Positions 281 to 59,200 of a stretch of DNA of 64,000 nt are shown here, one piece after another (position 1 is the first letter of the stretch; every line of letters begins with the position of its first letter). The notes under the pieces are model-generated. The model was not told the origin of the DNA, made no database searches, and saw only the letters and a program-made list of their open reading frames with translations. The stretch spans positions 53,160,761-53,224,760 of the forward strand of contig OZ024869.1 in the NCBI GenBank assembly GCA_964017185.1. Reading direction: 5' to 3'. The DNA is from Rugalucina vietnamica (Eukaryota; Mollusca; Bivalvia; Lucinida; Lucinidae). The position numbers and the translations under genes were made by a program.

Positions 281-516
281 TGAGCCGCGACGCGAGAAAA
301 CCGGTCTTCGGGGTTTCCGAACAGGTCCCACACAAACCGGCCTGTACAAGCTCAGAAAGAGCTAGAAGCTTGAAATTTCGGATTTAAGTAGAAGAGGAAT
401 TGTACTATCCGAGTAGCGAAAACAAAGGCGCTGATCAGCTTCGCGGTTACCGCGAAGCTGATCTGCGCCTTTGTTTTCGCATAGGCAAAAATCCGGTTTT
501 CTCACGATGCGGCTCA
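281..516. mobile_element. Palindrome-core MITE (family P)
   Basis: Termini TGAGCCGCG / TGCGGCTCA flanked by TA on both sides. The core palindrome AGCTTCGCGGTTACCGCGAAGCT-like sits at 433-463. Confidence 0.85.
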
Positions 517-1246
517 TATTTGCCATAGCATCAAGCAAGGATATGATAACAGCATATTTATTTTAACTGCCACTATGGTCTAGCCAACAGGACTGATTTA
601 ACAATGAATGATAGTGAACAAATTGTGAAACTGAGTACATGTACAACTGAGCCCTGGCCCCAAGGTTATAGTTTTTTATCATGCTCAGCTTAGCTGAGAC
701 TGACATTTATCCTGCTTATTAAATAAATCTTTGGCTTTGATGGACTTAACCCAAAAATTCAATTAATTTGAGCTGTTTCAGGCACAGCTGAGTTGAGCTT
801 GAAAATATTTTTATAACCTCGGGGACCTAATCCATGTCTACTGACACTGAGGATGATGATCGCAACAAAAATCCCAGTCAACAATGTTTAGTTATGCCAG
901 GAATAAAGCCAATGCTTCCTGTGATCTTGGCTGGTTGATTTGGGGTTGAATGTCCCACCAACAGCTAAGGTCATATGGAGACCGGATATCGGTTTATAGT
1001 CTCATCCAACAGACTGGAGAAGCCCGGCATCAAACCTGGAACCCCTGGTTTACAAGGCAAGTGACATAACAATGTTCTTGACTGGTGCTATGGGGAAGAC
1101 ATGATTACTTTTCAAGGACACAAGCAGATCTTACACCCCAAAAAAATTCTTGTTCACACAGCATAGCCACTGTGCATCCCAATTTCATTTTTTGAGGTAT
1201 TACCAAGATCATTTTGATAATTAAAACAGTGTTTTCTGAGGAAAAC
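517..1246. other. Intergenic, mostly unassigned
   Basis: Positions ~940-1090 contain AATGTCCCACCAACAGCTAA, a remnant of the dispersed SINE-like family. I see nothing else. Confidence 0.5.
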
Positions 1247-2448
1247 TATGTCCCCCCAACCGTTTAGTAATTGAAATGTAGTTACCTTGTGATATGAAGT
1301 TTTTCTATGGAAGACACCATGCCCATCTTGTTCTGTATGGTGTGGTAGTTAAAACTTGTTTTGGACCCTGTCTAAAATTTGGTCACGATCACCAAATTCT
1401 TATAAACTCTGAACCTCCTCACAACAATGCTTCTGTGCAAGTTTGGTCCAATCCATCAATTGGCTTACAAGTTATCGCGTCCAAAAGACTAAGTTCAACA
1501 GTTATGAACTAGTGACCTTGGAAATTAGGTCAAGGTCACCAAAATCTTATCAACTCTGAGCCTCCTCCCAACAATGCTTCTGTGCAAGTTTGGTCAAAAT
1601 CCATCAATTAGTTTACAAGATATCGTATCGGAAAAACTAATTTCAACAGTTTTTATGGACTCGTGACCTTGAAAATTGGGTCAAGGTCATCAAAATCTAA
1701 CCAACTCTGAGCCTCCACTCAACAATGCTTCTGTGCAAGTTTGGTTACAATCCATCAATTGGTTTACAAGATATTGCGTTGGAAAGACTAATTTCAACAT
1801 TTTTTATGGACTCATGTCCTTGAAAATTAGGTCAAGGTCACCAAAATCTAATCAACTCTGAGCCTTCTCGCAACAATGCTTCTGTGCAAGTTTGGTCAAA
1901 TTCCATCAATTGGTTTACAAGATATTGCCTTGGAAAGACTAATTTCAACAGTTTTTATGGACCCGTGACCTTGAAAATTAGGTCAAGGTCACCAAAATCT
2001 AATCAACTCTGAGCCTCCTCCTAACAATGCTTCTGTGCAAGTTTGGTCAAAATCCATCAATTGGTTTACAAGATATTGCATTGGAAAGACTAATTTCAAC
2101 AGTTTTATGGACTCGTGACCTTGAAAATTAGGTCAAGGTCTCTGAGCCTTCTCCCAACAATGCTCTTGTGCAAGTTTGGTCAAAATCCATTCATTTCTTC
2201 AGAAGATATCGCGTCGGAAAACCTAATTTGATCAGTTTTCATGGGCTGGTGACCTTGAAAATGAGGTCAAGGTCACCAAAATCTAATCAACTCTTTCACC
2301 CCTCCCAACCATAAATCTATGCAAGTTTGGTCAAAATCCATCCTCTGGTTCAAAAGATATCGCGTCGGAAAGAAGCTATGCCAACGCGGACGCCGACGGG
2401 ATCCGCACCAAAAACAATATGCCCCCCACCTTCGGTTGGGGGGACATA
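1247..2448. mobile_element. Tandem-core element B (about 151-bp units)
   Basis: Starts TATGTCCCCCCAACC and ends with a hairpin CCCCCCACCTTCGGTTGGGG-GGACATA whose right half mirrors the start. Seven or so units (e.g. 1512, 1663) each contain GTGACCTTGAAAATTAGGTC and AAGGTCACC. Architecture resembles bivalve pearl/HINE elements. Downstream of CUL2. Confidence 0.75.
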
Positions 2449-2461
2449 AATATGCATCAGG

Positions 2462-2657
2462 GAGCACTGCTAACATCTTGGTCAACAATTTTTCGGTAAT
2501 GTCGGGACAAAGCCTACACTTCCTAAGTATTAACCAGTACACCAGGGAGTTAATGTGTCTTGCTCAAGGACACAACATTGTGACCCCGTGGGGATTGAAC
2601 CCAGGACCTCTCGAAGATTCGGAGTCTGATGCTCTACCACCAGGCCACCACGCTTCG
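2462..2657 (-). mobile_element. Second tRNA-derived SINE family, antisense
   Basis: On the minus strand GTGGCCTGGTGGTAGAGCAT (box A) and GGTCCTGGGTTCAATCC (box B), followed by TTGAGCAAGACACATTAAC. Downstream of CUL2. Confidence 0.78.
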
Positions 2658-2771
2658 TAAAGACCCCAATCAGACTACTTCTCAGTTTCAATAAGTCTAC
2701 ACTGTTTGCCTACGCCTGTAAAAATTGAGTGTCACTGCAGTATACAGAGTAGTTTGGTAATGGTCATAAGC

Positions 2772-2990
2772 CTAAAATTCTGAGAAAACCAACAATGTCA
2801 TTTCTGAACATGTCCGACACAGAGCTGTACACAAGCACATAAGATGGCTAGAGGCTGGAAATGTTGGTTTTGTTAAGTAGAGGAATTGTACTATCCTTGT
2901 AGCGAAAACAAAGACACTGATCAGATCTGTGCCTTTGTTTTCGAACACCGGCATGCAAAATGTCGGTATTCTCATGACGCAGCCACATAT
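2772..2990. mobile_element. Palindrome-core MITE, family P, degraded
   Basis: Recognised by AGAAAACCAACAATG at the left, the GAAAACAAAGACACTGATCA block and GTATTCTCATGACGCAG at the right; the core palindrome is largely deleted. Confidence 0.7.
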
Positions 2991-3215
2991 TATCAAATAC
3001 ACTGTTACGTTTTGTTACAAAAAAGAAACATTCAACTTCTATGGAAGTTTTGTTACAAAAAATGTTAACATCTTTTTTTACCAAAAATTAATAGTACATT
3101 TGTAACTTAACTAACAACTTCCCTTGACTTTCCTCAACCAAGTTCCCAGTCAATCACATTAATCACAGTTGGTAGAACTATTTGCAAAACACTATCATAC
3201 ACACATGCATATGTA

Positions 3216-37588
<34,373 letters not shown>

Positions 37589-37997: not shown

Positions 37998-40009
37998 GGT
38001 ACAAGTAGGCAAAGATCAGGAAAAGGCGCAATCAGAAAAAGATTCCCACTCTAAAAACTGAGGTGGGAAAAAACCAAACTAACAATCAGGTACTTATACC
38101 ATGAAACAATCGTAAGCCGAATGGGCAGCTATTTTCCCAATAGGTGGCCACTCAGTTACCTTAACTTAACTAAAAATATGAAAACATACATAAGGCGCCA
38201 ACAGCACAAAAAAATTTTAAACACCAAGACATAAAACAAAAAGAACCACCACAGAAGTATCGACTTGGAACGATCAGTAACACAAAGTTACTGGCGGGCT
38301 TAAACCGGTTTTACATGGCCATAACCTCACCCTCAGCTTCTGCAGTGGTTCATAACATTTAGTTAGTTATTCGGTCCTCGTGGTGAATCTCTAACTAGTC
38401 AATGAATCATCAAGAACAAACAAATAAATCATGATAAACATCCTGATGAATCAAAAACCAGGACTCACAGACTGAGTAAGCTGCCCGACGAAGGAGATCC
38501 CTGGGCGCCGAATAACCTACTAACTCCGGAGCAAAAGAAAAACACCAGTTGGACCCCGGTGGGCCAAGCAACAGACAAGAAGCTCCGGCCCCAACCAACT
38601 AAAATGAATAGCTTTATGTCGGGGCCATCATAGAGTCTGACGCCCGACCCACCGGCGTGCAATTAAAGAAGGCAGCATAGTTATCAACCATGATTGGGTT
38701 AAAAACTAAGCATGCAGACTGTCGCATAACATTCAAGTTATAACCTATACGTTTGTAACGTGTTATGATTTTTCTGAACTGAAAAGAAAAATCATTAATT
38801 CCTTTAAGTTTCTTAAATTTGTAAACCAAGTCACCATAAAATTCAGGTTCCGAAAGGCCCTCACTTAAAAGCGTCTTTAACCCAACATTATATTTGGAAA
38901 TCAATTCATAGTGTCTACGATAAAATTTAGAAAATGTTTTTCGAAGTTTATGATACCGATAGCCCTGTTGGAGAAGTTTTGCCGTTAAACATTTATTTCG
39001 AGCGTTGAAGTCTGTAACATGATTGCAGACTCTAGCAAACCTAATAAGTTGCGAAATGTATACACCATAAGAAGCACGACGAGGAACGTCACCATCCAAA
39101 AAAGGAAAATTTACTATATCAAAATCAAAGTCATCGCGCTTATCATAAATTTTAGAAGAAACAAATCCATTTGCAACAGAAAGATGTAGATCTAAAAAGG
39201 GGGCTTCAGTATCTGAGATATTGGCTTTGTTCAACTGAAGTTCAGGTGGATAAATTTGATTGACCATACCTTCAAAATAAGGGTTGTCAATGTTCAATAG
39301 GTCATCGAGGTACCTAGATGTGGAATTAAAAGCCTCGATAACATCAGCTTGATTATCATGGTTAAGAGAATCCATGAAATCTCTTTCGTAGCAGTATAAA
39401 AATAAATCAGCTACGAGAGGTGCGCAATTTGTACCCATCGGAATTCCAACAATTTGTCTGTATAACTTGGTCCCAAATCTAATATAAATATTATCAAGGA
39501 GATAGGATAAGGCGTCGCATACATTCTGACATGACCAAAGTGTATACCGACTTTGGTCAGAGGAAGTGAAAAAAGCCTTTCTGTCATTACATGCCAAATA
39601 AAGTGAACCATAGTTTTTTAATGCCCTTTTGAAGGTCCACTCTATCAAATCCAGAAGTTTTTCTTTAATTAGATTATGTGGTAATGTTGTATACAGAGTA
39701 GAAAAATCATATGTGGACAAGCTTGTCGCACGGAACCCTCTACACTTCAATTTACTGAGCACCTCACCAGAATTTTTAATTGACCAAAACCAATTTTTAT
39801 TTGAAGTTTCATACACTGTCTCACAGTATCTTATAACATGAGATTTGATAGCAGTAAGACAGGAAGTTAATAATTTAGAAAGTTCAGTGGTAGTACAAGA
39901 GCTAGAATTTGCAATAAATATTGCTAACTGTCGCGGAAATGTTGTTTTCTTCGGGATAACATGTCCACAATCTATATTTTGAGCAAAAATAATAAATAAT
40001 ATCAAACTT
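37998..40009 (-). mobile_element. Penelope-like retroelement copy
   Basis: Covers the RT frame and about 610 nt of 3' sequence. The 3' limit (~37998) is set by the end of similarity with the fragment at 16588-16871; the 5' limit is approximate. It lies inside a TTAA-flanked inverted-repeat element (37567-40189). Confidence 0.7.
38614..40005 (-). CDS. Penelope-like reverse transcriptase ORF (463 codons)
   Basis: An uninterrupted frame with reverse transcriptase motifs: motif A STYDFSTLYTTLPH (Asp100), motif B GIPMGTNCAPLVADLFLYCY (residues 187-206) and motif C RYLDDLL (Asp234, Asp235). The arrangement SLYT-type motif A, (G)xxMG motif B and RY-x-DD motif C is closest to Penelope-like elements; that assignment is from recalled family patterns. 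No GIY-YIG endonuclease is visible in this frame, so the element is either an endonuclease-lacking type or truncated. The first ~14 codons (IFAQNIDCG) coincide with a 27-nt sequence also present in the palindromic repeats at 25.8, 26.7, 27.9, 46.6 and 53.4 kb. Its 3' region (37998-38613) recurs as a truncated copy at 16588-16871. It is a mobile element, not a host gene. Confidence 0.8.
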   Translation of the reverse strand: MILFIIFAQNIDCGHVIPKKTTFPRQLAIFIANSSSCTTTELSKLLTSCLTAIKSHVIRYCETVYETSNKNWFWSIKNSGEVLSKLKCRGFRATSLSTYDFSTLYTTLPHNLIKEKLLDLIEWTFKRALKNYGSLYLACNDRKAFFTSSDQSRYTLWSCQNVCDALSYLLDNIYIRFGTKLYRQIVGIPMGTNCAPLVADLFLYCYERDFMDSLNHDNQADVIEAFNSTSRYLDDLLNIDNPYFEGMVNQIYPPELQLNKANISDTEAPFLDLHLSVANGFVSSKIYDKRDDFDFDIVNFPFLDGDVPRRASYGVYISQLIRFARVCNHVTDFNARNKCLTAKLLQQGYRYHKLRKTFSKFYRRHYELISKYNVGLKTLLSEGLSEPEFYGDLVYKFKKLKGINDFSFQFRKIITRYKRIGYNLNVMRQSACLVFNPIMVDNYAAFFNCTPVGRASDSMMAPT

Positions 40010-40328: not shown

Positions 40329-40548
40329 TGAGCCACCTCGTGGGAAAACCAACAATGTGGTTTCCGAACAGGTTCGACACAAACCGGCCTGTACAAGCAC
40401 AGAAAAGAGCTAGGACCTTGAAATTTCGGATTTAAGTAGAAGAGGAATTGTACTATCCGAGTAGCGAAAACAAAGGCGCTGACCGCGAAGCTGATCTGGT
40501 CTTTGTTTTCGCCTTTGCAGATTGTTGGTTTTCCCATGAGGCGGCTCA
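40329..40548. mobile_element. Palindrome-core MITE, family P
   Basis: TGAGCCACCTCGTGGGAAAA to GGCGGCTCA flanked by TC on both sides; one core arm deleted. Intergenic. Confidence 0.88.
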
Positions 40549-41359: not shown

Positions 41360-41374
41360 TAATCATTTAAATTA

Positions 41375-41570: not shown

Positions 41571-42049
41571 TAATCATTTAAATTAATTATGCAATTACTG
41601 TACAGAAATGTCTTCCCTTTTTAGCTGTCAATTTTGGACATACACATATAAATTTTGGCAATCTTTAAAATTTAGAAAACAACTGTTGGATAAAAAGATA
41701 AATTTTGTTGAAATACATGACAAGGACATCGAAAATGATTGCAGTGACTGCAGTCAATTGAGTAATTAGCAATAAAAGCTGTATAAAAAATTCACAAAGT
41801 TGATGGACCATGAGATATAGGTCATGAGCACTGGGTTAAGGTGCTTGGTTGAAGAGTATGACAAACACAATTTCTATGCAGAGTGTTATTCTAACAGCTA
41901 TTAATGCTATTAAAGAAATAATACATGTATTCTCAAGTTCTAGACACCACACAACATAATTTAACCTGATAAGATAAATAAGTCAGTGATCCATGAAATA
42001 TAGGTCAAGCACCCCATCAAAGTATTAGGTTTTGAATTGTTTGAAATGA

Positions 42050-42250
42050 TGCTTTACGTCCCAGTCAACAGCAATGGTCATACCCAACTAATCCAATAAG
42101 GCTTATATCTATGGATGGTTTGACTAAACCACTTTTCCTGGGCAGGCTCAGACATGAGCGGTTAACAAGTAATCAGATGGTCAGTCTGCAGATAAGAAAC
42201 TTTGCCTAGAGGCACGAGCAGCCCTTCTATTTCTCCTAGGCCCCAATGGG
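42050..42250. repeat. Dispersed SINE-like repeat, same family
   Basis: TTTACGTCCCAGTCAACAGC, CCACTTTTCCTGGGCAGGCT, AGCAGCCCTTCTATTTCTCC. Intergenic. Confidence 0.65.
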
Positions 42251-42440
42251 CAGGGGCCAGAAGGTGTGATCAATTGTATAGTATGTCAAGGACAATTACT
42301 ACGCAGTATTTCATGCATGATTACATCTCAGAATATGAATAATTTACTGGTATAATGTCAAATTGACACCAGGGGGATGGGGCTTGACCGATGGGGATGA
42401 CCATCGGCATAAGTCTGCCAAAATCATGATGATGATCATC

Positions 42441-42580
42441 CCCCCCCCCCTTACCTCCCCAAAAAAGGCAGTCGCTAAAGATATGGTAAGCTAAAAGATA
42501 TGGTACTGTATCTTTAGCCCACAGGCTAAAGGTACGGTACCGTATCTCTAGCCACTGCCCCCCCCCCCCCCCCCCCCTTT
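42441..42580. repeat. Poly-C tracts with a small palindromic repeat
   Basis: C runs at 42441-42450 and about 42549-42577 flank AAAGATATGGTA / TACGGTACCGTA palindromic words. The longer run could form an i-motif or G-quadruplex. Confidence 0.75.
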
Positions 42581-42589
42581 AAAAAAAAA

Positions 42590-44212
42590 TGGTCAGGACA
42601 CGTACCATGTAAGCACCCTAAACCGCTTCAGTTCATAACGGTGCCACCAGCCTTGAGTAAAAGACACTACAGACCCCTACATAAAAGGTCAACGAGGTCG
42701 TATGACAGTCAATAGAGAGAGATCAACAGGTAAGTGGATAGTAAAGATAAGGTAAGTGGTCATTACCTGAGGTGATGATCAGAAATGATCGACTCTGTAT
42801 CAGAAGATAGATATAGTAAAGATTGGGCATGGGATTTTCACTTTCATTTTGGAATTGTAAATACCATAAACTTGATGAGAGGAAGGGAAGTCGCAATAAA
42901 AAAAATTAAGCTAATTTGTCAATAAAATAGAATTGTGAAAAACTTTGGTGTTAAAACTTAATTAACAACCTTCCAAAATCTCAAAGAGCCAATTTTTGAG
43001 AGGCACAGAAAAATTTTCTTCAGTTTACAGAAGTCGCCATTGCTTGTATTATTCAAAACTCACATTTATTTTTGGACGAAAAAAAATAAATTCGAGACGT
43101 TTCGCCCCAAACCATTTCCTCCCCTAGTCGTTTCGCCCCCACAACGTTTTCTCCCTAGTCGTTTCCACCTAGTCGTTTCGCCCCACCAGTCGTTTCGCCC
43201 CACTAGTCGTTTCGCCCCCTAGTATATATGAAAGGGAAGATAGCATATAAATAAACTATATAATTACATTTTCCACATAATTTTGCGTACAGTAAAGTAG
43301 CGCAAAGTGGCGTAAAGAATCGCAAAGTGGCCCAAAGGTGGCGCTAAGTGGTATAAGAGACAGATGGTACACTTGTATACTCGCATGTAGGGGTCGGGCG
43401 TAACATAATCTCAGATTTTTTTGGTCATTTTTTGTAATACGACAATGGGAGGAGCACATAATCTTCTCACGGAGCTAATAGCTTTCATTATAGTATTGTG
43501 AAGCCCTAATGTGATGGCAAACTCTCCAGCATTGAATTTCTAGAGAAAAGTTTATCAGTATGCTATCAGTATCATTTGTTTTATTTGCCATTTCCAAGTT
43601 CATCACATGGCTAGTGTAAACATATTTAATGGATAATCCACAGCCGCAGCATCTTATTGGCCACAGTCAAGCAAAACAAACTTTTATGTTAGAACAGCCA
43701 AAGTCAGAAAAGCACCATAATGCACTATTTACATCACATTTCACATGAAGTAAATTAAAACTGCGGAAAACAACAGTATTCAACCATAATTATCAGAAAA
43801 CGCTTTGAATTAAATGCTGGAAAAATTCCCAGGACAATGCTGTCTTTGAAATGAGCCTATTAAAACTAACAAACTGACAGATACATTGCAATCTCTGCTT
43901 GGAACAACAGTCAGTAGAACCATGTCTTCTTAAGCCTAACGCTAACACCAGATGATAGCCCCGTGAGAGATTATAGGCTCCTGACATTGTTGATGATTGC
44001 AAAAACACTTTACTCTTCTCAACAGGCCTAACAGGTTAGAATTTGCTACATAGAGTGTGGGTTTCAGATTTTACACAAAATGTCACAGAAAGAAGCATTG
44101 TACTGGCATTATTTCTGTTACAAAGTGTCAAGCACACAGTGAAATATCAAATATCTCGTCAAATATTTCGTTTTTATTTCTTGTTATATTTAAAAAATAG
44201 ACCAGCTCTAGC
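42590..44212. other. Intergenic, no gene recognised
   Basis: Apart from the minisatellite at 43085-43230, I see no exon or repeat family; the frames present are short and unsupported. Confidence 0.45.
43085..43230. repeat. CCCC-rich minisatellite
   Basis: Short unit AGTCGTTTCGCCCC repeated with variations about seven times. Intergenic. Confidence 0.8.
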
Positions 44213-44344
44213 AGTGAATTGTTGAGTAATAATTCACTGTTTGGAGGTCAGTTGTAAAGAAGATCAAATCACGAGCGCGTAGCGCGAGTGATTTATCTTC
44301 TTACAACTGACCGACAAACAGTGAATTATTGCTCAACAATTCAC
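44213..44344. repeat. 132-bp inverted repeat (hairpin)
   Basis: Arms of about 60 nt: GTGAATTGTTGAGTAATAAT ... TTGTAAAGAAGATCAAATCA pairs with the right half, around an AGCGCGTAGCGCG loop. Intergenic. Confidence 0.85.
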
Positions 44345-44780
44345 GCACTTGAGCTGATCTATTTCGATTCTAACACACAATAAACGGAATAAATGTTGCT
44401 GAAACCGTCGATATCGTTCAGCTTTCCGCCATTGCACTGCCGATATCCCGCCAAATATTTGACTGTAATGCTGGTATTTACATACATTTATTACGTTTGT
44501 TGTGCGCTAAAACTACGTTTCACCGTCTAATGCTGCTTTGTGGGATAGCTGACGTCACAAATGCCGCAAAGTAACGTCACGCTTATTCGCCCAGTGAAAT
44601 TGTTGCACAATATAACACAATTTTTTACCATTGGCTATATAGGCGAGGTGTGTTAGAATCTTAAATAATAAATAAAAATAATGTTATAGGTGTATATTAA
44701 TGGAGAGAAGAAGAAAGAAATAATACCGTGTAGTATTGGAAATCGTGTAAATATTTAGATCTTGTGACTGTTCCCTTTAA

Positions 44781-45726
44781 GGATGTTCGCTGCCAATGAA
44801 AAAGTATTCAAACTTTTTTTCTAACCACTCTTTTTTGATTCCAAAATACAACACAAGGCATTTGAAAACAAAATAAATATAGGGTAGTGTGCATTTTTTC
44901 AAGCTACAGGCCTCTGAATGAGACCTCTGAGCACCATGTTTTAAATTTGGTAAAATTAATTTAATTTATAATTCTTTGAAACATACCTGTCGTGAACAAA
45001 AAATATACCTAGAATGCTTTCACAAGTCATAATATTTAAGTAGCGCAGACAATTTTGGACCAAAAGCACAGAAAAATTTGCAACTTGGAGTGGATGACAA
45101 AATTTTACGATTCCTTTTCTAACCCTACCCCCATACTTGAAAAGTCGGAAAAAAATCAATATTTTGAAATGTACCAATCCAATATTTGTTGATTCAAACT
45201 TTTTCTTGTATTTTCACACAACTTAGAACTTGGTAATACTGTTCGAATAAAAGAAAGAAAAATATAGGGTAGTGAGCATATAAGAGAGATCCAACAACTT
45301 GAAAATCGCCATTTTCGGCCTTTTTTCGGCTGTTTTGTTTCTAAAAGCCCATTTCATAAGACCACCTTCAATTTTAAAACCAGCACACCAAAGACATAAA
45401 GAATGACTTAGAATACCATGTACACATATACTGCTGCTAAAATAAACGTCGAACTAGTGCAATTAATTTGAAGATGTGTAATATTCAAGTTTAATCTACC
45501 CTACCCCCTAAATTTTACTGACAACTAAATTTTTCTGAAAAGTTGCAGAAAATGGGGTGAAAAAATGAAGTTTCTTAGATTGACAATTTTCATGGCTCAT
45601 TTGATGCATATTATCAATATGTATCCAAATATAAAATATTAGAAAAATATCTGCAACCGTTCACGAGATATCCTAGAAAAGAAAAACCGGAAGTTCCGAA
45701 ATGTCAAATGTTAGCAGCGAACATCC
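44781..45726. mobile_element. 946-bp TTAA-flanked inverted-repeat element
   Basis: Ends GGATGTTCGCTGC and GCAGCGAACATCC form a 13-bp inverted repeat, each next to TTAA (44777-44780, 45727-45730). No long frame inside. Intergenic. Non-autonomous piggyBac- or Kolobok-type by target site only. Confidence 0.8.
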
Positions 45727-45730
45727 TTAA

Positions 45731-46613
45731 GTCAATAAAAGGTGTGAAAACGTCTGTCAGGTTATGGTTATCAGTGCGGTATTGACTTATCTGCCACACG
45801 TCTGTTTGCAAGGTGTTATAACGATCGACTACTAATCTCTGCACGTGTCATTAATCGGATTATTAGAACATGTTGAAATGAGATTAAATGACTCAAAATG
45901 TTACTAAGGATCTGGGAAGATTTCTTTAGTGAGATTGCCCAAGAATTTTTTTTATAAAATCTCAAGTTCCAGGCACTGAAACAAAGTTTATTGCATTCGA
46001 AAAATAAGTTTCTATTGTATTTAGACACGTAATGCTTTGTAAAACTCAAGCAGTGACTTCTTAAAACATTTTACAAAATCTTTGAATAATATAGGATCAT
46101 ATATGAAATAGGAAACTTTTTGAATGACATATTATATCAAAATGCCATGTTTGGGCAAGGGGAAGGCTGACAAAAAGCCCCAAAATCGATAAATGGGCTC
46201 AACTATACTATCTTTCTTTGAATATTTTAATGCTTCCAAAGGATCAAACCTTTATATTTTATCAACTCCATTATTTGTAATGTACCAAGGCTATGGAAAT
46301 ATACTGTCTATGTATGTTCTACCTGAATGTACAGACTGTCTGTCCTATTTTAACAGGTATACACAAAGTGTACACACCATAATGCATATAGATATACTGT
46401 GAAAAATATGTTTATCATTGTTTGATGGTTTAAGTTTTATTTGAGATATGCCTCAGTGGACTTAAAATCATTAATGTAACGTCACTTCAGCACCACACAA
46501 TACTTGGTTTGACCCTAATTTGATGAATGCAAGATGTTGGCAGAAGAACTTCCCTAATGTCTAAAAACATATGGAGTCAATGTTCAAAGTAAAAGTTGCA
46601 TAATTTATTTTGC
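45731..46613. other. Intergenic, no gene recognised
   Basis: AT-rich unique-looking sequence between the TTAA element and a family R half copy. Confidence 0.45.
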
Positions 46614-46760
46614 TTAGTACAGTGTGGTTCTAACGAGTACCCACAATCTATGTTTGGAGCAAAAATAAGAAAATATGTTTACCCCTGTATACCCCAGTGA
46701 CGCTATATAAAGGAGGGGCTTAAGGGGGTATTCATTACATGTTTTCCTGATGAGGTGTTG
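46614..46760 (-). repeat. Palindromic repeat family R, half copy
   Basis: One arm (GTTCTAACGAGTACCCACAA) plus the flanking AAAATAAGAAAATATG and CTATATAAAGGAGGGGCTTA blocks, reverse orientation. Intergenic. Confidence 0.7.
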
Positions 46761-46849
46761 GCTATCATAATCAGTCAAAACATTTTCTATACACCGCAAA
46801 TTCAGGTCCACCAAAGGTATGCTGTTTCTCTGCCGGACTACCAGGTATT

Positions 46850-47090
46850 TGCTCGTTGTGAATATTACAGGTTTTCGTTCTATTCCATGACGATTGTTTT
46901 ACGGAACCGGCTCCCCGGTGCTTTTCCCTGATCTTGACTCCTTCAAGAGTGTGACGAGCAAGATCAACTCTTCAATACAAAATATTCACTATCAGGGACT
47001 GGAACGACCTCCTTGATTCTCTGATCTCCTCTGCTGAAATGTCTGATGACTGTTTATCCAAGTTCGCGGTTAAGGGTTTCATACCGGAGC
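46850..47090 (+). pseudogene. Decayed LINE C-terminal fragment
   Basis: Plus strand reads KIFTIRDWNDLLDSLISSAE then MSDDCLSKFAVKGF, the same block as 47676-47930, and before it a frameshifted RFSFYSMTIVLRNRLPGAF segment. Intergenic. Confidence 0.65.
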
Positions 47091-47675
47091 GAAGTGTCTA
47101 TGAACAGAAAAAGTATTTCGTTAATCTTTTAATCCTACATTTTGACAACAAGGTGCCCGTTTCCGGTGTCTCGTTTTGACAGGAACGCTGTTTCCGCCTA
47201 GATACCACATCGCTTCGAAGTCAGTCACCGGGTCCAGAAAAAGTAAAAAAAGACGTGACTATTTTATCCTGTATGAAAAAGAAATATCTATATGACTTTT
47301 CCCTGTGCTATGACATTTTGTTTTCCCTAAATTACTGTATATGTAGTTTTTAAGCATTGGTTTGATGTATTCACTTTCAGTTTCATTCTTGTTTGGAATT
47401 TAGAAAGCGAAAGTTGGTTGATAAATTTGTGGTTTAACTTCCTACCAACATATTAGGTCATACAGAGACAGGACTATGGTTTAAAATCTTGGATATTTCT
47501 GTCAGTGTTGTAAACCGTTAACTCATCCCTATCCATCCCACATTGTAAGAAGAGAAGTAGAAGACGAGTTTTCGGAACTCAACAACTCTACAAGAACTAG
47601 TTCTAGAAAAAGAACCGATCAATTTCGTATTCACTACATGCTATCGGTTCTAGTTGAAGCCATGGCTATCTGAAT

Positions 47676-47930
47676 CTGAATCTGAATAGTTTACTGGTGA
47701 CACGCCAAATGACATTATTTCACCAGGGGGTTCGGATGGGGGAGAGATTAGTCCCTTGAACGCACGAGTGAAGCGAACTTGGACACACAGTCATCAGACA
47801 TTTCAGCAGAGGAGATAAGTGAATCAGGGAGGTCATTCCAGTCCCTGATAGTCTGTGGAAAGAAACTACTTTTGTATGCTTCTTTGCTAGCTGAAGGTAA
47901 TAAAAGTCAATTACAAAATCTCACCATTTG
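47676..47930 (-). mobile_element. LINE 3' end (C-terminus of a reverse transcriptase ORF)
   Basis: The minus strand reads YKSSFFPQTIRDWNDLPDSL then SSAEMSDDCVSKFASLVRSR and stop, the typical C-terminal block of non-LTR retrotransposon ORF2, followed by a GATTCA-repeat tail near 47663-47680. Strongly 5'-truncated. Confidence 0.78.
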
Positions 47931-50674
47931 GATGTCACAACAGCATGATCACATGATGTCACTGTATATTCATATTATTCCATTCATGGTACTATCAAAT
48001 TACACAGTATTCCACCAAAAACAGTGATAATTAGTAAAATTTCCAGTTGTTTACTTGTTCATCCAACAGAAATCAGCAAATCCATGTGCATGATGTCATG
48101 TGACATTTTGGTATACAGTACATCACCAAAATTTTGCACCACAAAAACTGGTAGCATAGAATAGAATAGAATATTTTATTTGGTATACAATAAGTGTTCA
48201 CCACAACATACATGTAACAATAAATAACACGGCATTCCAATCAATACATTTTTATTGTGTGTTGTATACACAGATAAACTGACTTGTTTACTTGCAGAGT
48301 ATATTTTGCTTAATTTATATCTTGGGCAAGTCAAGTCGCCCCAACGACTCTGCTTTGGTATTTGAACAGAACATACATTTTAATTTACCTAACGGTGCAA
48401 TCCCACCTTAGGGCGTATGAAGGTGATTTATGTCAGAAATTGATCAACTCAGTATCTGAAGAAAAATAAAGAAGGAAAAAGATTTCTTGAGTTGGGTTCA
48501 AAGTCTCCAATGGGGGGGGGGGTCTCCTTTTTATCTGCTTTGCCCTCAATTGACCCATGAAAATGAAATAAGTTGGTCCCAGAGGAGGGTTCTTTCTAGC
48601 AAACCCCTTCTTAATCTGCCACTGTACCCAGATAAACACTGTTTGCCTCTAGCAAGGGTGTTAGCCTTCAAATAAACATTAGGTAATGGCTGTTGCATTA
48701 AAATGTTGGTGTTTGGGGTGTCAGTTCCCAGTCTTCCTGAACAAGTGTTGCCTTCCGGTACCAGAAGGGGCCTGATAACGGGAATGGACTATCGGAATGG
48801 ACATTTATATGTGTCCTGGAGTACTTTTTATTCGGTTTTTGGGGGAAAGACAGTCATTAGTTCGAGAATCGTGTGGTTTAAGTACAGTTTGTTCGATGTG
48901 GTAGCCTATGTCAGGTGCTAGGTCACTGCTACAGTACCATCACATTTTACTAATTTCTATTTCTGTTCATGATCACCTCTGTCTTGCTGTATAACAAACA
49001 CTGGTGATCTCTATATTTTAATCAAATAAACCTCTGAACAGTAGCCACAACACAGTCGCCGCCAATGAGCTAACTTTACCACCCTGGGAAGTCAATTTTG
49101 CTATACTTGGTTGGATTATATCTTGGGCAAACTATCTGTATGACTACAGAAGTATGTTTTTTTTTTTTTTTTTCTGCAAATAACATATATTTAAAGCACC
49201 AAAATCCATAGCATCAGGGGTCCAGTTACTGGGCTCTAGGGCGAAAAACTTCGCCATAGGAGCCCAGGAATCGCCCTGGGGAGCCCCAAGGCCTACTAAA
49301 ACTTCGCCTGCTAATTTCTGCAACTTTTTTAAAAGCTTTACTTGTGTAAACAAATGGGTCATCAAACGATGTCTAGTGCAATCAACTGGAACATTATCCC
49401 TACCTGTCAACACTTCAAACAGCTGGCAGTTGGTTTGCTAATCCCTTCAGCATATCAATTATCATTGCTTAGGTCATAATTATGTTAAAATTGACACATT
49501 TTGACAGTTATCATTCCACATGTGAGTGGTCACAGATTTACCTGTCATTTTTATCCGGGCCTATTTATCCATACATTCAAATGAGATCAATAAAGTCAAA
49601 GAAGCATTTGAAAAGTTTTCTCCACAATTATGCCTTTTTGATGTGGACAGTTATGTATCATAGTAATTGACATTTTGTGCACATAAGTTGTTTTTATTTT
49701 TTATTTAAAGATCGTTTTACAAGTTCTAGCTTTTACAAAATTGTTGTCCTTTCTATTTAGAGGTTCTTTATGTTTGTAAAATGATTTCACTGTTTCCCTA
49801 ACTCCAAAATGCAGTCTAATAGAAATATTAATAGAAGATTAGCAGAATATTCCCTTTCTTTTTTATTTGGTCATTAAAAACACAAGGAGTGGAAAACTAT
49901 GTTGTATTTCAAATCAAGGATTTCATTTTAAACCGAAACAATCCAATTCCATATCATAAGTCGCTTTATTTGTCACTTCTCTCTAGGTCCCAAAACTTCT
50001 CCCTAACTTTCTTGGAGAGAGAAGTGATTTCTCCCTATTTTTCAAGGCCAGCAGGACCCCTGTAGCATAATGTCAATTCCAGTTGTCCTTTCCCTTAAAA
50101 GTGCTTATTCGGGTCCATTCTGGTAAAGAAACGCACCCCTGAAAAAGCCTTATTAAAAGCCATTATATATAGGATATGCTGGTCTGCAGCTCTATGACCA
50201 TATCGCAGTTGCTAATGGCGGAGGTGCAAGCACCCCTATATATCTACCATCCTGACCAACATATTCTCAATACACAAATGCTGCTATACATGTAAGCATT
50301 GTTATTGCTTTAGGGTCATTATATTTGAATCATTTTTTGGATGTCATTACCTTTTTTGGGGGGTAAAAGTTGATTAAAATGGAGGCAACATCTCGACATG
50401 TCCAAAACTGTTGACTGGGACGTTCAGCATCAATTCAAAGAAACAAACAGTCTTTTTTTTTCTTCTTTTTTTATGTTTATAGAGATCTTGCACACAAGAT
50501 TATAATAATCAAAGGGGCATAATTCAGCAAAGAGTTACATTTACTGACAGAAAAATATACCTGTCAACAATCTTTTCACATGGCATTCTTATTCCATGAA
50601 ACTTTAAGGCCCTAGCATATAGGCCATTCAAAAAGGAATCAGCATATGTCTTGTCCATTGAAAAATAACTTCAG
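47931..50674. other. Intergenic, mostly unassigned
   Basis: Contains a T-run (49157-49174) that would be a poly-A tail on the minus strand for the ~300 bp upstream (possible retro-inserted sequence), a TTCTCCCT repeat near 49980-50040 and a SINE-like fragment at 50360-50430. No gene recognised. Confidence 0.45.
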
Positions 50675-51030
50675 AAATACCATATTGGTTCTAATTAGCA
50701 CACATGCTCCAATAGGCACACACCCTGGTTGTTTCCGAATAACACGTGCATAAGCACACGGCGCCAGTAGTAAATTGTTATTTTACACCAATTCTACACA
50801 ATGTTAACGCATATGACGCATTAAAACTGAACAGTAAATGATCATAAACTACTTTGCAACAATTTGAACACTTATTGACATCACCAAAATTCACCATTGA
50901 AAGATATGACATGGTTATTTCAGCATTTTGATGTGTTGTTTTCGTTCTTAGTGTGTGTTTCTTACCTCAACTTTTAGTAATTTTGAAAAGTTAAGCGCAC
51001 TGTGCGCTAATTAGTACGAATACGGTATTT
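50675..51030. mobile_element. Inverted-repeat MITE family S, copy 2
   Basis: Same family: AAATACCATATTGGTTCTAA left and GTACGAATACGGTATTT right, about 28-bp imperfect inverted repeat. Intergenic. Confidence 0.75.
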
Positions 51031-52279
51031 AAGTTTCAATAAGCCAAAGCAAGCAAAATAAAAGGGTCCTGCTTAATGTGTCTGTCAAAATTATGTTGCT
51101 ATTGGATTATCAATTTCTTTTTTTTTTTTTTTTTTTTTGGAATCATCAATGGGCATACACTGTACTTCACTGAACTTACACAGAAGGTCAGTTTGCACAT
51201 GTGTTAATTGAGAACAATGGCTGACTGAAATATGAAAATATTGTGTAAAAAATGGTGACAATGGAGTACTCAGCGATCTAGTCACACTGGAGTGATTTCA
51301 AACAGTCAATATTGTAGATTGGTATGTTTTCTTCAATAGTCACATAAAGTTTTTTGCTGACACATCAGCAATATTGAAAAATCTACTCTTTTGTAATGAA
51401 AGAGTTAACATGTCATTCCCGTCTTACAAAATCTACCACTATACAAGAACCAGTACCAGTACCAGTTACCTTCGAAATTCGGTGTAGTTAATGTTTATAG
51501 TTGTAATTTATAGCTCTCTCTAAAATCTCGGGTTTATCACAGTTCTTGCACACATGCAGTGACACATGCTGCACTAAAACAGAGTTGAGAAATTGGTCAC
51601 TTTCATGTGTCAAGATAACTATCCTTGATTAGAATCACTGAGGTAGGTTTTTCAGCCAGACGAAAAGTCCCTTCTAAATTCGGTGTAGTAGTAAACAAAA
51701 CTCAAAACAAAATTATCCAGTTGTGCCAGAACAGTCTGATTTTTACCAATTTGTAGAGCTGGATATCCCCAAAGTAGTCATGGTAATTAAACTTATCTAT
51801 CCTGTCTGGTTTGTATTTGGGATGAATTTAATCTCGGGGACTATATTTTATTAAGAATTTACTTTTTTTCCTTGTTGAAAAAATGAGTGTGTGAATTTAA
51901 ATGCTTGTGAACTTGCACAACATTGTCGTTCAGATACAATTTTTATACCCCGAATTTTGAATTGCCCCGAATTTCGAAGGTTCCGCCATACCATAAAAAT
52001 AAGAAAACCTAGACTCAGACCTTCAGCTGTTGTTTACAATCTCCATGTGTACACTGTAGCATTCCGAATGTGTCACACAGCCTCAGTTCCAGGAGTGTAC
52101 TAACTCGGAAAAAAATGTTTTTACTTTACACTACAAATTTTCAAACATGAAATTCACTTTGAAAAACTAAATCCTGCTTACCCTCACTTCGCACACTGTT
52201 CGAAGAGATATTAAATTTTGTCTCCAGATGATATTCCATAAGAAAAGTCTGATTTCCTGCTTTAAATCCATAATTTCTG
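51031..52279. other. Intergenic, unassigned
   Basis: A T-run at 51118-51138 and two inverted words CTTCGAAATTCGG (51470) / CCGAATTTCGAAGG (51966) that may bound a diverged element. No gene recognised. Confidence 0.45.
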
Positions 52280-52450
52280 AGATTACACATTCAGCTGACG
52301 CGTTTGCGGTCATTTTTGAGGCGCATTGCTAAGCCAATCAGAAAGCACCTCTCCGGGCTCACGAGGTAAATGCGCGCCGTGACGCCAAGGCACCCTCGTG
52401 ACGTCATGGTCGAGTTTGGATGCACTCACCACGTGTCAACCATGTGTAAT
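52280..52450 (+). promoter_or_regulatory. CpG-rich patch with CCAAT and CRE words, possible SPAG1 promoter
   Basis: AGCCAATCAG at ~52333, TGACGTCA at ~52400 and CACGTG at ~52431 lie in a locally GC- and CpG-rich stretch about 650-800 bp upstream of the SPAG1 start codon. Promoter role is inference. Confidence 0.35.
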
Positions 52451-52914
52451 CTGAACCTGCCAGGTTGGGTAACAAATAGCAATTTTTTGCCAGAAAGTAA
52501 TTTTCAGTAGGGCTTTTTCCATTGTGAAATTTCAGCAAGGGAAGTAACTATTTTCCCGGAAAAAAAATCTAAACTGATTATTTTTCAATTAAAATGCACA
52601 AAACCAAAACAAAATTGTAAAGTCCACATAGCTGAGTGCCATACTCATAAAACTTATCCACAGATTTGCAAGATTTTCAATTTTAAGGTGTTTGGGTTAT
52701 CTCACTTGCACATGCAGAAAAGGCCTATTCTAATAATTTTGGGCAGTTTTTTTTTTTTTTTAGTTGACCGATTTATTTATTTTATTTTTTTGCGGCACTT
52801 TTTGAGACTTAAGGGTTGCAATATGATGACATGGTCATATTTTTCTTGAGGGGTTTCAGAATAGTAAATTTGGAAAAAGGCGGTTTCTGAAAGATGGTGT
52901 ATGGACAGAATCAG

Positions 52915-53056
52915 GGAGGTGGGGACTTGAGAAGAATAGTGCCATCAGTGTTGTGAAAATAAAGATGCTGATCAGCTGTTCCGTTTTTTGTGTGCAGCTA
53001 GCTGACCTAAGCTTTTATTTTTGTATATAGAAAGCAGGTTTTCTCATGAAATGACT
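52915..53056. mobile_element. Palindrome-core MITE, family P, strongly degraded
   Basis: Only the AAAATAAAGATGCTGATCAG and AGGTTTTCTCATGAAATGAC blocks resemble the family. Just upstream of SPAG1 exon 1. Confidence 0.5.
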
Positions 53057-53098
53057 AATTTCGCTTCAGGAGACACCCCAAGACAGTGTATATGAACA

Positions 53099-53235
53099 AT
53101 GGCAGCCAAAACAGATTCTGCCCTGACATCAGGAAATACTTCCAGATTCAACATACCAATCAGTCATCTAGACTTTGACTACATCAAGAAATGTACGGAC
53201 ACCAAAGAACTGGAAAAGATATATGTCACTCTCAA
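53099..53235 (+). CDS. SPAG1: SPAG1 exon 1 (residues 1-46)
   Basis: The start is the ATG at 53099 (MAAKTDSALTSGNTSRFNIP), in frame with HLDFDYIKKCTDTKELEKIY. An overlapping ATG at 53092 is in another frame. Donor GTAAGA. A TTTCGCTTCAG about 30 nt upstream of the ATG could be an acceptor, so a 5'UTR exon is possible. Confidence 0.92.
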
Positions 53236-56200
53236 GTAAGAAGCTGCAGTAAACATTGTGATAATTTTATCATTACGAAAACTTGCCCATGCAGTATACA
53301 GAATTTTTTTTGGTTGTAAAAATGAAAATTTTCACTGGAAAAATTTTGATATTTTTCTTATTTTTGCTCAAAACATAGATTGTGGGTCTAATGAGTACCC
53401 ACAATCTATGTTTGCTCAAAACATAAATTGTGGGTCTAACGAGTACCCACAATCTATGTTTTGGAGCAAAAATAAGAAAAATAGGTATACCCCCGCATAC
53501 CCCAGTTTTGCTATATAAAAGTGGGGTTTAAGGGGATATACATTACACGGACACATTATCCTGATGTACAGTTGCTATGTTAGGCCCTGAGGACATGATA
53601 TAGTGACTATGCATCTCCTATATCAACTACTTACAGCATCAGGAAATCTTTTGTGAAATACATTTATGTGTAGTGAATGGGAAACTATAATATGCATTAT
53701 GGAGACAGTATCACGCCTTTTTAGCAAATTTTCAGAAAATTTTATTCAGCACGTGCTCAATAAAGTTCATTAAAAACTGACAAAAGATAATTGTTCTGAC
53801 ACTGTACCAAATGCTCAGGAATCCACTATCCTTTTCAGGTCAGGAGATGAGGGCTATTTTCCAGAACTACAAAAGACCTGTGAAGACAGACTTACTGAAC
53901 TGAATCCAAACAGGTAAGATTCTAGTTCTTTGTATCATTGTATGTTCTATGTTCAAATCGACTCTGGTAATGTATTAGCAGATGTGTTTTAAAGGTTTTC
54001 AGTGTCTCTGCCCATTTGTGGATATCCTATATACAGTTCCAATAAAAGATGATTTTCAAGAAATAAGTAAAACTATTTTTTTATTTGAACTTTGTTTGAC
54101 ACTATCACTTCATAGCACTGATTTTTTCACGGAATTGGAAGTATAACATTCTTTGCATGATGTTTTAACGAAGTTAAAGGGCATCTGAACTTCAAGTTAT
54201 TGTTCTGTTGGCACCTTTAATACAAGCCGCCTCGTGGGAAAACCAACAATGTGGTTTTGAACAGGTCCGACACAAACAGGGCTGTGCAAGCACAGAATAT
54301 GGCAAGAGACTGGAAATTTTGGATTTTGAAAGTAGAGGAATTGTACTATCCGTGTAGCGAAAACAAAGGCGCTGATCAGCTTCGCGGCTACCGTGAAGCT
54401 GATCTGCGTCTTTGTTTTCGCATATGCAGATTGTTGGTTTTCCCATGTGGCGGCTCATATATTGTGTCTTTTTGTTCTTTTCAGTCGAATTTTACGGAAG
54501 GAAAATCCTGTATCTACCAAAGGAGACTTGGATCATACTGAGTGGCAAGAGTTGGATAAAGACCTTAAGGTTTGAATTTAACCATATATAACGAATGGAC
54601 TTGACCGTCATTAACAATTGGGAGAGTCCACTTTTCATTTTGAGGACATCAAGCGATTTTAAATTTTTATAATATTTTTTTATGAAATTACTTAATGCCT
54701 ACAGAATACCCTCAGATGGGAAGCCGCATTCTGCAGAGTCACATCTGAGGCTATTCTTTTTTGCCTGTGTCCCATAAAAAGGACACCAGGCTTATATGAG
54801 TTCATGCTAAGGCATGTTTTCAAGATAAAATCAAAATGAGCATAAAATTTGAAAATGCTCACGGATGATAAAGACCTTTAGAATTATAGATATTTATTCA
54901 TTCATACCGTTACAGCAGGAAAATCAATAGAATTTAAATTCTGCATAACCTGGTACCTCAGAAAAGAACATATTCCTTAAAAAGACAACCTGAGTTGTTG
55001 GCTCTTTAAATTTTCACATGAGCTTGTAAGTCCTGTGCTTCTCTCTTGTTACACCAGGGCCTTTACTTTATCTGTATATGGAGTAATACATGAGCCTCCT
55101 CATGAGAAAACCAACAATCTGTGTATGCGAAAACAAAGACGCAGATCAGCTTCGCAGTAACCGCGAAGCTGATCAGCGCCTTTGTTTTCGCTACTCGGAT
55201 AGTACTGTACAATCCCTCTTCTGCTTATATCCGAACTTTCAAGCTTCTAGCTCTTTTCTGTGCTTGTACGGGCTGGTTTGTGTCGGACCTGTTCGGAAAC
55301 CACATTGTTGGTTTTCTCACTAGGCGGCTCACATCATGATGCAGTGTCTTTATTGTAGGATTGGACAAGCGGTATGAAAACTATGGAGGAATCAATAAAG
55401 ACTTCCCAGAATGCACCAGACACTACTGATGATGATCTACCTCCAATCAGATCAGGGGCCATTACTCTTACCTCAGAAGGGGTTGGTAGTATAGGAAATT
55501 TTATCATTGGAATATCGTTTGAGCTGCATCACGAGAAAATGGGTCTACCAGATTTTTGACCAGGTCTGACGCAAACAGCCTGTTCATTCACAGAAGAAGG
55601 CTAGAAGATAGAAAAAAGTAGAAAAAGACAATGGTAGGGATTTAGCGAAAACAAAGGTGCTGATCTGCGCCTTTGTTTTTGCCAAGGCAACCCCTCACCC
55701 CCTCCCCCCTCCCCCCCCCCCCCCCAAAAAAAAATAAAATAAAAAAATAAAAACAGTTTTCTCATGACACAGCTCATTTGATAGAGGATAAAAACCCAAG
55801 ATTATAGAATGTTTTTGGAAAAGAGTATTTTCCTCTTCTATCTTGTGCTATTGAGACAGAGCAAGTTTAAGTTACTGGCAAAAGATGGACTCGAACTTAG
55901 TCTAGTGAAACTACTGGCAAACAGCCCACATTGCTGTTTTATGGAGGGTGCTAAGGAACAAAGCAAACAAAATGAAATTTTGAAGAAAACAAAATGACCT
56001 GGATCTGACAAAAAGGTACCTTTGGGCATTCAACTACCTTTTTTCCGTCTAAATTTCACAATTTTTATGCTGAGATTTATGGTATATTTGTAGGCAAAGA
56101 CGACCCAACCCAGTAAAAAGAAATCAGCAATGCCAAGAGAATACAGAGACTGGGACAAGTATGTCAATCTCATTATATGAGCCGCGACGCCAGACAAAAG

Positions 56201-59200
56201 GTCTTTTGGGGTTTTCGGCCAGGTCTGACACAAACCGGCTTGTACCGTCACAGTAGCAGGCTAGAAGCTTGAAATTTTGGATGAAGGAAGAATTGTACTA
56301 TCCATGTAGCGAAAACAAAGGCACTGATCAGCTTCGCAGTTACTGCGAAGCTGATCTGCTCCTTTGTTTTCGCAAAGACAAAAATCTGGTTTTCTCATGA
56401 TGCAGCTCATGTCTTAAATTACTAGAATCTTTGTAGTGTAGTCATTACTACAGGTGTGCTATGTTTCTTAAAACTGTCATTTGAATCACAGTTGTTCAGA
56501 AAGTGATAGGATGAATAGGTTGGTACATGGGTTACATAATAGCTTTCATGACCAGACTCCACACAAGTATCTCATTGTGCTATTTCAAACAGACTTGTCT
56601 TTGATAAGATCACATATTGTAAGGGTATACCCGAGTCGTAAGGGTAGGCATGCTCTGGTGTCCATCCATTGTTCATCTGTCCGTTCTTAATTTCAAAACT
56701 CTTCTTTTCTGGAACCACTTGGTTAATCAAAGTTAAATTGTATGTGGAGCCTCCTTGGCAAGGGGGAAACAAAGTTTATATAAATGATCTAGGTCACATG
56801 ATAAATGATCTACGTCACTTGATATCCACGAAGCTTGTTAGTTAGGATTGATCCAAATAATCGAAAATCCTATTTGTCTGTCTTATTTGTTAGGATTGAT
56901 GTTGACAAAGAACTGGAGAAAGTTGATGAAGGGGACAAACCTAAAGGAAGAAGTTTTGTTGACGGCAAAGAGATCAAAGATATACCAGAATATGTTGATA
57001 CAAAAGGTAATTTGTATTAGTATATAGAATTAAGAATTTCTATTCACAAAAATTAGCTTCTTTTCAATAATAAGCAACACCTAGAATTTTCTTGCATAGT
57101 AATGCAGTTAAAGAAGGGTGATGTGGTAGATAGTCTCCACATTGTCAAATATGAGCAGCAGCACTAGAAAACTGGTCTTTGTGGTTTTCGAACAGGTTCG
57201 ACCCAAACTGGCATGAACAGTCTCAGGACATGGCTAGAAACAGCAGCTTGAAATATTGGATTTAACAAGAAGAGGAATTGTACTATCCACATATTTGTGT
57301 CACTTAAGCAAAAAACATTTTTCTCAAGATGTGTTCCATATACATGTAGTAACTATTTGGCAAAAATTAGAAGCCTTTGAGACCTAGTAGTTAAGGCACT
57401 CATTTCGTAAAACCAGAGTTAGTAGATTTGATCCTACTTTGAACCACTTGATACTTTTATAGGCCCAAACCTTTGCCGTTTGCATTTACTAAAACAGGTA
57501 TTCCATACATGTGCTTTAGAGATGAAGACATCTATACGTAAGTTTGCAAGCATATTTAGATTCTATAAAGGCTTATGTGTCCATTTTGTCACAGGTTTAA
57601 CAGAAAGTGAAAAACTAATGAAGGCCAACAGAGAGAAAGACAAAGGAAATGAGGTAAAAATTCATTACATGCATTACCTGCACCCTCTCCTTTTTCAGTA
57701 GCTATGTTGAAAATTTTTGAATCTTGATAAAGATTATTGAATTAAGGCTTCTAGTACTAGCAAAGAAAACCCTATCCATGAAGGAGCAATTTTTCTATAT
57801 TCATGCTTCTTCATTTTATTTAGAATAGGTGTGTTTATTACCATGCATTTTAAATTTTCTATATTTGGAGAGTACAGTGGCCTATTGGTATACCATCACA
57901 GTCCAGAGCAAGCGGTTGGGGATTTGAACCCCACTGGTGCGGAGTTGTGTCCTTGATCAAGACACTTTAACTTTCTTGGAAGTGGTGGTGGCTTCAGCCT
58001 GATATGAATAACAATTGTTTACAAACTTTACAGTGATTTTAAACCACAAAGCAAACAAAAATTTCATTGCAGGCCTTTAAAGCTGGGGATTATAAGGAAG
58101 CCTTGGTATATTATTCCAGAAGTATTTCACTGCAGCCTACGGCAGCTTCATACAATAACAGGGCCTTGGCATGTGAGTAGAGCAGAACTTTCTAAAATCT
58201 TCATACTCTTTGTTTATTTGTTGTAGTGGATTTGAAATTAGATTCCTGCAGACGCAGTCACAATATGAAGTATTTGCTATTTCAAATCATATCAGTTAAC
58301 AGAATTTACTAGAAAGGTTAAACCATGTTGTTAACCTTGTTTTTAAGATTGGTAACTGTAAACTGTCTAGAAATTTCACTATTAGAATCTTTGGAAATTA
58401 ACTCATTTAAGCCGGGTGTCCTATTTATGGGACATAGGCAAAAAGCATAGCTGAAGATGTGACGTTGCAAAATGTGGTGTTACATCTGAGGCCATTCTGT
58501 TTGCATATGAAAATTTCATGAAAAAAAAATGAGATGAAAATTAAAAATCATTCCTGCTGCCCCTACAAATTGAAGTGGACTCACCAAAATGATAACGATG
58601 GGAAAGTCCATTTGTCAAAAATGGGTTAAGAATCTATATATTATTTTGTTTCCAGATCTAAAGACCCAGGACTGGGTGAAAGCAATGACTGACACGGACA
58701 AAGTTCTCAAAATAGAGCCAGATAATATCAAAGGTAAAAACTTACATTCGGATGATTCCTAGGTTTTTCTATGGAACTGTAAGATGTATGAAATTCTGGT
58801 AGATAGATTGAAGAAAACAATGTACTATTTGCCATATTTTGGTGGCAGCTTCAAGAGTGAAAGTAAATTGTCTATTAAGCATGAATGCAGCAATATTATA
58901 TCTAGAAGAACTTTTATTATGCCCCCAACTTTGAAAAAGTTGGAAGGGCATATTGGTTTGGGCTTGTCTGTCTGTCTGTCTGTGTGTGCGTGTGTAACGC
59001 CTTTTTTTTGAATGGTGAATGTTAGGGATTTGAAATTTCATGTGTGTATTCCTCATGAAAAAATAGTTGACCCGTATTTTTTTTCTTGTCCGAGTTATGC
59101 CCCTTTTCTGAGTTATTTCCCTTTGAAAACAAAATTTGAAAATCTTGTGTGCAAGATATCTCCAAAAGTATTTAAGCTAGAGCCTTCAAATTTGGTATAC

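Follow-up and report, generated by a model that had tools for sequence, protein, structure and literature searches.

A recently amplified family of short transposable elements in the bivalve Rugalucina vietnamica, with a two-base target duplication set between A and T and a core palindrome that differs in pairs between subfamilies

Miniature inverted-repeat transposable elements (MITEs) of the Stowaway/Tc1-mariner type are short and non-coding, carry a 2-bp target duplication and reach very high copy numbers. Helitrons insert between A and T and are not known to make a duplication or to carry long inverted ends. Among the PHIS transposons, ISL2EU elements use the target A-AT-T (hyphens set off the duplicated pair), in which the outer A and T are conserved, and have ends that usually start with GG next to an AT duplication, and Pangu elements also show an outer A and T, around one variable base (ANT) (PMC4482050; this and all other cited articles are represented here by parts of their text). 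We analyzed a 64,000-bp window of the genome of the lucinid bivalve Rugalucina vietnamica (contig OZ024869.1, positions 53,160,761 to 53,224,760 of the forward strand), which contains many copies of a repeat with TGAGCC/GGCTCA ends, here named family P. The literature searched, including those parts of PMC4482050, PMC10294476, PMC12730594 and PMC10045372, yielded no paper on this family. We consider it fairly probable that P is a non-autonomous cut-and-paste MITE that targets A-NN-T, is moved by an ISL2EU/PHIS-type enzyme and owes the symmetry of its hairpin to events at the level of source copies.

Family P is an element of ~236 bp, of which a profile search (with a profile first built from nine copies, then rebuilt from 18) found 22 copies or fragments in the window, in agreement with an earlier note on this DNA that had counted at least 20 copies with these ends. 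The window holds 46 occurrences of the motif TGAGCC itself, where chance predicts 19.7. The inverted ends are 24–31 bp long and agree at 21/24 positions in the burst group described below and at 29/31 in the group of copy 20946 (copies are named by their first position). Both ends were placed by hand in 18 window copies, of which copy 9639 was then dropped, leaving n = 17 for the flank statistics.

Identical 2-bp flanks bordered 13/17 window copies (mean 4.5 when the pairing was shuffled; at least 13 in 2 of 100,000 shuffles), the mismatched copies being 2767, 8983, 20946 and 56178, and none of the 18 copies with placed ends had flanks matching over 3 bp. Read on the plus strand, the duplications were TA (six copies), AA (three), AT, TG, TC and CA, and the base outside them was A on the left in 15/17 copies and T on the right in 17/17. 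A larger sample combined window and genome copies: 110 insertions had both ends, 97 with at most one mismatch per 6-bp end were kept, and duplicate loci were taken out by flank similarity. Most sampled copies were chosen by similarity to three queries, and the flank frequencies therefore do not describe a random genome sample. Flanks were identical over 2 bp in 79/97 insertions (shuffles: mean 19.9, maximum 35 in 20,000) and over 3 bp in 2/97; the outer left base was A in 89, the outer right base T in 91, and both held in 84 (p = 1.5e-70 against base composition). The 79 exact duplications comprised AA/TT (40), TA (22), CA/TG (7), AT (4), AG/CT (3) and GA/TC (3). Among the 70 that lay within A..T, AA/TT was 2.2-fold and TA 2.6-fold more frequent than at A-NN-T sites of the window, and GC-only pairs and AC/GT were absent; the fourth base tended to pyrimidine/purine (137/194 half-sites). 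None of AA/TT, CA, GA and AG is self-complementary, which means that the inverted ends cannot simply extend into the flanks. The target of family P is A-NN-T, with NN mostly AA/TT or TA, and its middle two bases are duplicated.

The earlier note had reported matching dinucleotides in ten copies and a duplication that is not TA-specific, and both observations stand, the second in the window, in the larger sample and in one nested insertion; its description of a duplication "of no fixed sequence" applies to the duplicated pair, whereas the surrounding A and T are fixed in most insertions. The nested copy (27239–27474, −; AT duplication) directly shows the 2-bp duplication: it splits an outer copy (27121–27595, +; TGTGCAG core, TA duplication) that reads CAAT-ATTC around it, and most other family members read CAATTC, the empty site. 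These data bear on several known groups. A Tc1/mariner-type (Stowaway-like) MITE inserting sloppily at TA would share with P the short, non-coding form, the 2-bp duplication, the very high copy number and the enrichment of TA, but its ends differ, and 57/79 exact duplications are non-TA, including 14/18 in the burst subfamily, whose copies have had too little time for mutation to produce such pairs; this explanation is already contradicted, and we regard it as extremely unlikely. Helitrons resemble P in inserting between A and T, but P has a 2-bp duplication and long inverted ends. Pangu shares the outer A and T with variable sequence between them, but its 3-bp duplication includes both, whereas P duplicates two bases inside them (PMC4482050).

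Genome searches covered the host assembly (1.09 Gb, 47 contigs), in which a 22-bp end pattern, TGAGCCGCNTCATGNGAAAACC, had 20,256 exact matches and the reversed-pattern control none. The copy number of P in this genome is at least in the thousands. Copy 281–516 (−; TTCGCGG core, TA duplication in A..T) as query gave 2457 candidates, of which 40 were scored: besides the query, one place reached 416 bits, 35 had exactly 411 and three had 409. Of the 39 non-query places, 20 were fetched, all at different sites; 19 were identical over 237 bp, one differed by a single base, and 18 carried exact 2-bp duplications. As these copies were picked by similarity, their number is no measure of the size of the burst. 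Median divergence from the group consensus was 0 in this burst group, 2.5% among relatives of copy 20946 and 7.6% among relatives of copy 9639. The subfamily of copy 281–516 is thereby shown to be a fresh burst, and family P moved very recently in this genome; it is short and non-coding, with inverted ends, a target duplication and a high copy number, and so has the properties that define a MITE. With its burst of identical copies, so abundant a MITE lends itself to the search for an animal transposase that was active recently. Outside the host, the core pattern had no match in viral contigs and three in prokaryote genomes, which we attribute to chance from the length of the pattern (~7 expected by our own estimate).

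The core of P is a palindrome. In the full copy 20946–21181 (+; TTCGCGG core, flanks AA/CA; used as a genome query), it spans 65 bp (20982–21046, +), with 31/32 opposite positions complementary and a DNA fold of 30 pairs at −39.5 kcal/mol. The three self-complementary versions named in the earlier note (TTCGCGG/CCGCGAA, TGTGCAG/CTGCACA and TTCGCAG/CTGCGAA) were found as stated. Among 12 aligned window cores (11 distinct), both sides had changed at 7/32 pairs (as many in 4/500 shuffles) and covariation was 0.172 against 0.101 in shuffled alignments (reached in 0/500); shifting the partner by 1–3 columns destroyed the pairing. We then placed core changes by parsimony on a tree of 102 gap-free cores from 116 copies, built from the other columns. 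Internal branches carried nine paired complementary changes, six that broke a pair and seven that restored one; terminal branches carried 13, 94 and seven, respectively. Nearly all paired changes (20/22) fell at four of the 32 pairs (14/52, 26/40, 27/39 and 30/36), which mark subfamilies; the inner ones lie in a 15-bp block, and the element ends also shift by subfamily, with A or G at both ends at positions 15 and 23–24. Outside the four subfamily pairs, terminal branches held three double changes against 1.5 expected, or four, two of them complementary, under another random resolution. Source lineages are thus shown to change in pairs, whereas single copies mostly do not, their arms decaying independently. 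The earlier claim that both arms changed together holds for the named versions and fails for individual copies: covariation is genuine at the level of subfamilies but is not evident as a continuing process within single elements.

Independent CpG decay of both arms could in principle create such pairs, as the differences at two of the three inner pairs are CpG-type transitions, CpG transitions make up 35/133 terminal changes in a core with eight CpG dinucleotides, and several copies have one arm altered at a CpG. We consider it improbable, because both sides of pair 26/40 differ by transversions, the paired forms are common to many copies, and terminal double changes over all pairs exceed independence (14 against 2.5 expected). 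The two mechanisms of the earlier note, selection and the copying of one arm from the other, may each account for the paired changes, and an exchange of the 15-bp centre as a block between subfamilies may also explain the three inner pairs. Whether the internal hairpins of MITEs are selected or self-copied can be tested directly through this contrast between sources, which change in pairs, and single copies, which decay independently.

An ISL2EU/PHIS-type enzyme is the best lead to what moves P, because the target geometry of P, a 2-bp duplication with an outer 5' A and 3' T, matches that published for ISL2EU (PMC4482050), and ISL2EU-like elements with DDE_Tnp_4 and HTH_Tnp_4 domains occur in the same genome, one with a YqaJ open reading frame (ORF) above the cut-off. 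A-NN-T ties P to ISL2EU and suggests that the duplication is not bound to AT. The likeliest candidate is a DDE transposase of the ISL2EU/PHIS type that is relaxed about the middle dinucleotide, an assignment whose chances we judge to be about even. As two typical features of ISL2EU, an AT duplication and GG ends, do not characterise P, and the transposase is a candidate, we liken P to ISL2EU in its mode of insertion without filing it as a member; the earlier view that no known superfamily could be assigned has gained a lead, with membership unproven. We hypothesize that a transposase supplied in trans would cut the palindromic A-NN-T with a 2-base stagger and join the TGAGCC ends to the cut target, and that gap filling would then copy NN into the 2-bp duplication. 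The arms of core and ends would become equal in the small number of source copies from which subfamilies arise: amplification may be restricted to copies with an intact hairpin and matching ends, or one arm may be rewritten from the other, through template switching in the hairpin or through gap repair. Once a copy has inserted, nothing visible would maintain this equality, and the arms would decay separately.

The earlier note proposed a search for a partner with the same ends; within the part of the genome searched, it turned up none. An HTH_Tnp_4 search listed 150 matches of 269 candidates, and 41 of the 150 were inspected: 30 as loci of ~3.1 kb (mostly 1.5 kb either side; nine, then one more, were extended to 9-kb stretches), L081 as a 9-kb stretch and 10 further matches as 3.5-kb stretches. 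Since most of these loci are short, an end could lie further out. P copies or end-like motifs at such loci were judged passengers from their orientation and completeness. One candidate partner, a 5.1-kb ISL2EU-like element shared by L080 and L094, was rejected, its TGAGCC-like motif being internal rather than at the boundary; L080 has HTH_Tnp_4, DDE_Tnp_4 and the YqaJ ORF, and L077 has THAP, HTH_Tnp_4 and DDE_Tnp_4 with a YqaJ match below the cut-off, and the ends of both differ from those of P. Burst-type ends followed by an unusual base numbered 321 (left-type) and 318 (right-type), the first 100 of each being listed; by eye, no left/right-type pair lay 1–10 kb apart among the listed ends. 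Sixteen left-type ends were inspected: 13 belonged to MITEs that were complete or nearly so (one of them, L147, carrying a short insert) and three (L135, L136 and L144) to MITEs with an interrupted core. In L144, a further 5 kb showed the MITE resuming after ~1 kb, with no open frame of at least 120 amino acids. The inserts in these three (L144 together with L151) are unrelated DNA, and the core may attract insertions, given 3/16 unusual copies.

Two rival assignments share the lack of a partner as support. A transposase outside PHIS, e.g. of CMC type (EnSpm/Mirage/Plavaka), with the A..T rule as a convergent preference, would fit the 2–4 bp duplications reported for CMC (PMC4482050), the 2 or 3 bp of Plavaka (PMC12730594) and the absence of a PHIS partner with P ends among the loci inspected. 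It is nevertheless unlikely, as A-NN-T is the geometry published for ISL2EU, and TGAGCC resembles neither TGT..ACA nor CATCA..TGATG, the ends described for Plavaka, the CMC group that this comparison covers. A stronger, though still less likely, contender is an undescribed DNA transposon group with its own transposase: the combination of ends, variable duplication and A..T rule matches no group in the parts of PMC4482050, PMC12730594 and PMC10045372 covered, and no coding partner was found; yet the transposases inspected are a small fraction of those in the genome, and absence is weak evidence. A bolder version, which we hold to be rather doubtful, places P in a group that is undescribed or deviates strongly and that duplicates a free dinucleotide within A..T; the family would be active, or would very recently have been, and its hairpin would serve as a functional transposition signal, symmetric in every amplifying source copy, with hairpin and ends co-evolving with the transposase.

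Several observations count against a MITE moved by an ISL2EU/PHIS-type enzyme with source-level symmetry, the reading we prefer. P duplicates AT in only 4/79 cases, AA/TT and TA each being commoner, and its ends read TGAGCC where those of ISL2EU usually read GG. No 2-bp match was present in 18/97 insertions, eight of which differ at both letters, and the rule is imperfect even among the 20 youngest copies, two of which fail it (L116 and L134; L134 reads ATT/ATT). For the core, further pair types in the window were not above shuffles (16 against 16.0; 355/500), and the relatedness of copies inflates tests of this kind; tree error or block exchange may lie behind the paired changes that recur at the same inner pairs. 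No autonomous TGAGCC-ended element was seen among the 41 HTH_Tnp_4 matches, and the 16 unusual left-type ends, all MITEs, revealed no partner; transposase families with boundaries read carry ends other than TGAGCC.

The loci inspected include two transposase families. L047–L054, L058, L077 and L078 form an ISL2EU-like family with a THAP-HTH-DDE ORF, ends ACTCTTTATCGACAAG and AT flanks, nine of its loci being 96–99% identical over long stretches. L065–L076 represent a 5.8-kb repeated element with a 276-amino-acid HTH_Tnp_4 ORF and P copies or pieces inside, ~99% identical among the three 9-kb loci compared and with at least 23 matches at one score. At another pair of loci, the paralogous counterpart (L088, 2232–2333) of a P copy (L085, 2285–2522) lacks the element and reads as if the two TA duplications were joined through an additional T; it is a possible excision footprint, the one such trace among the matches listed when joined flanks were compared with all loci. 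It lies in a TA repeat, and we do not rely on it.

The remaining window copies vary in completeness. Full copies lie at 28083–28318 (+; TTCGCGG core, TG duplication), 54223–54457 (−; a single CpG-type change in one arm, TA), 55091–55331 (+; TTCGCAG/CCGCGAA with one arm changed, CA) and 56178–56409 (−; TTCGCAG/CTGCGAA core, plus-strand flanks TA/TG), and a TTCGCGG copy with degenerate ends at 12499–12734 (+; TA). The core is partly deleted at 12223–12437 (+; TA) and 21561–21772 (+; AA), mostly deleted at 20344–20541 (−; AA), 16 bp smaller at 40329–40548 (−; TC) and missing at 57152–57338 (−; TA), where the left end is also degenerate. The copy at 25189–25358 (−; AA) has a CCGTGCAG core variant and a partly deleted right half, an old copy at 2767–2987 (−; flanks CA/TA) has lost the centre of the palindrome, and that at 8618–8834 (+) has lost its right end and gained extra sequence in the core. 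Fragments occur at 22951–23128 (−; no left end), 52930–53051 (−; old, no right end) and 55520–55689 (−; left end lost, palindrome centre deleted).

Two copies sit in duplicated exon pieces. At 8880–10100, an intact cullin-like exon is accompanied by two partial copies, both of which stop against a P copy at one shared position; the exon was called cullin by eye, and the Cullin-2 match is confined to 26017–26292. These P copies, 8983–9436 (+; TGTGCAA core, flanks TA/TG) and 9639–9874 (+; TGTGCAG core, right terminus lost; in the second piece), are probably one insertion that was duplicated afterwards, and the intact paralogous exon reads GATATG where both begin. The right flank of copy 8983 matched the intact exon no better than shuffles (464/1000 as good), and we therefore used the left junction alone. 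An apparent CA/CA flank match of copy 9639 was rejected, as its right end is lost and the match is flank sequence. Copy 8983 is itself broken at ~9115–9315 by a different short repeat, whose ends resemble GACTCCTCCG/CGGAGGACTC.

Elsewhere in the window, 19303–19562 and 19574–19833 are the nearly perfect arms (97%) of a 260-bp inverted repeat, separated by 11 nt and with ends GGCCAGTTGTTCAAAA; together they form a large fold-back element. A Pfam scan of three window ORFs, which covered these three only, found no transposase match. A SECIS_1 match at 38572–38639 (−; 37.4 bits, cut-off 35), which could be chance, lies at the end of a 463-amino-acid ORF that had no Pfam match and by eye resembles a Penelope-type reverse transcriptase. 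The ORF at 62113–62871 (+) shows, close to its end, a weak TPR match that stays below the cut-off, and by eye it resembles SPAG1/TOMM34.

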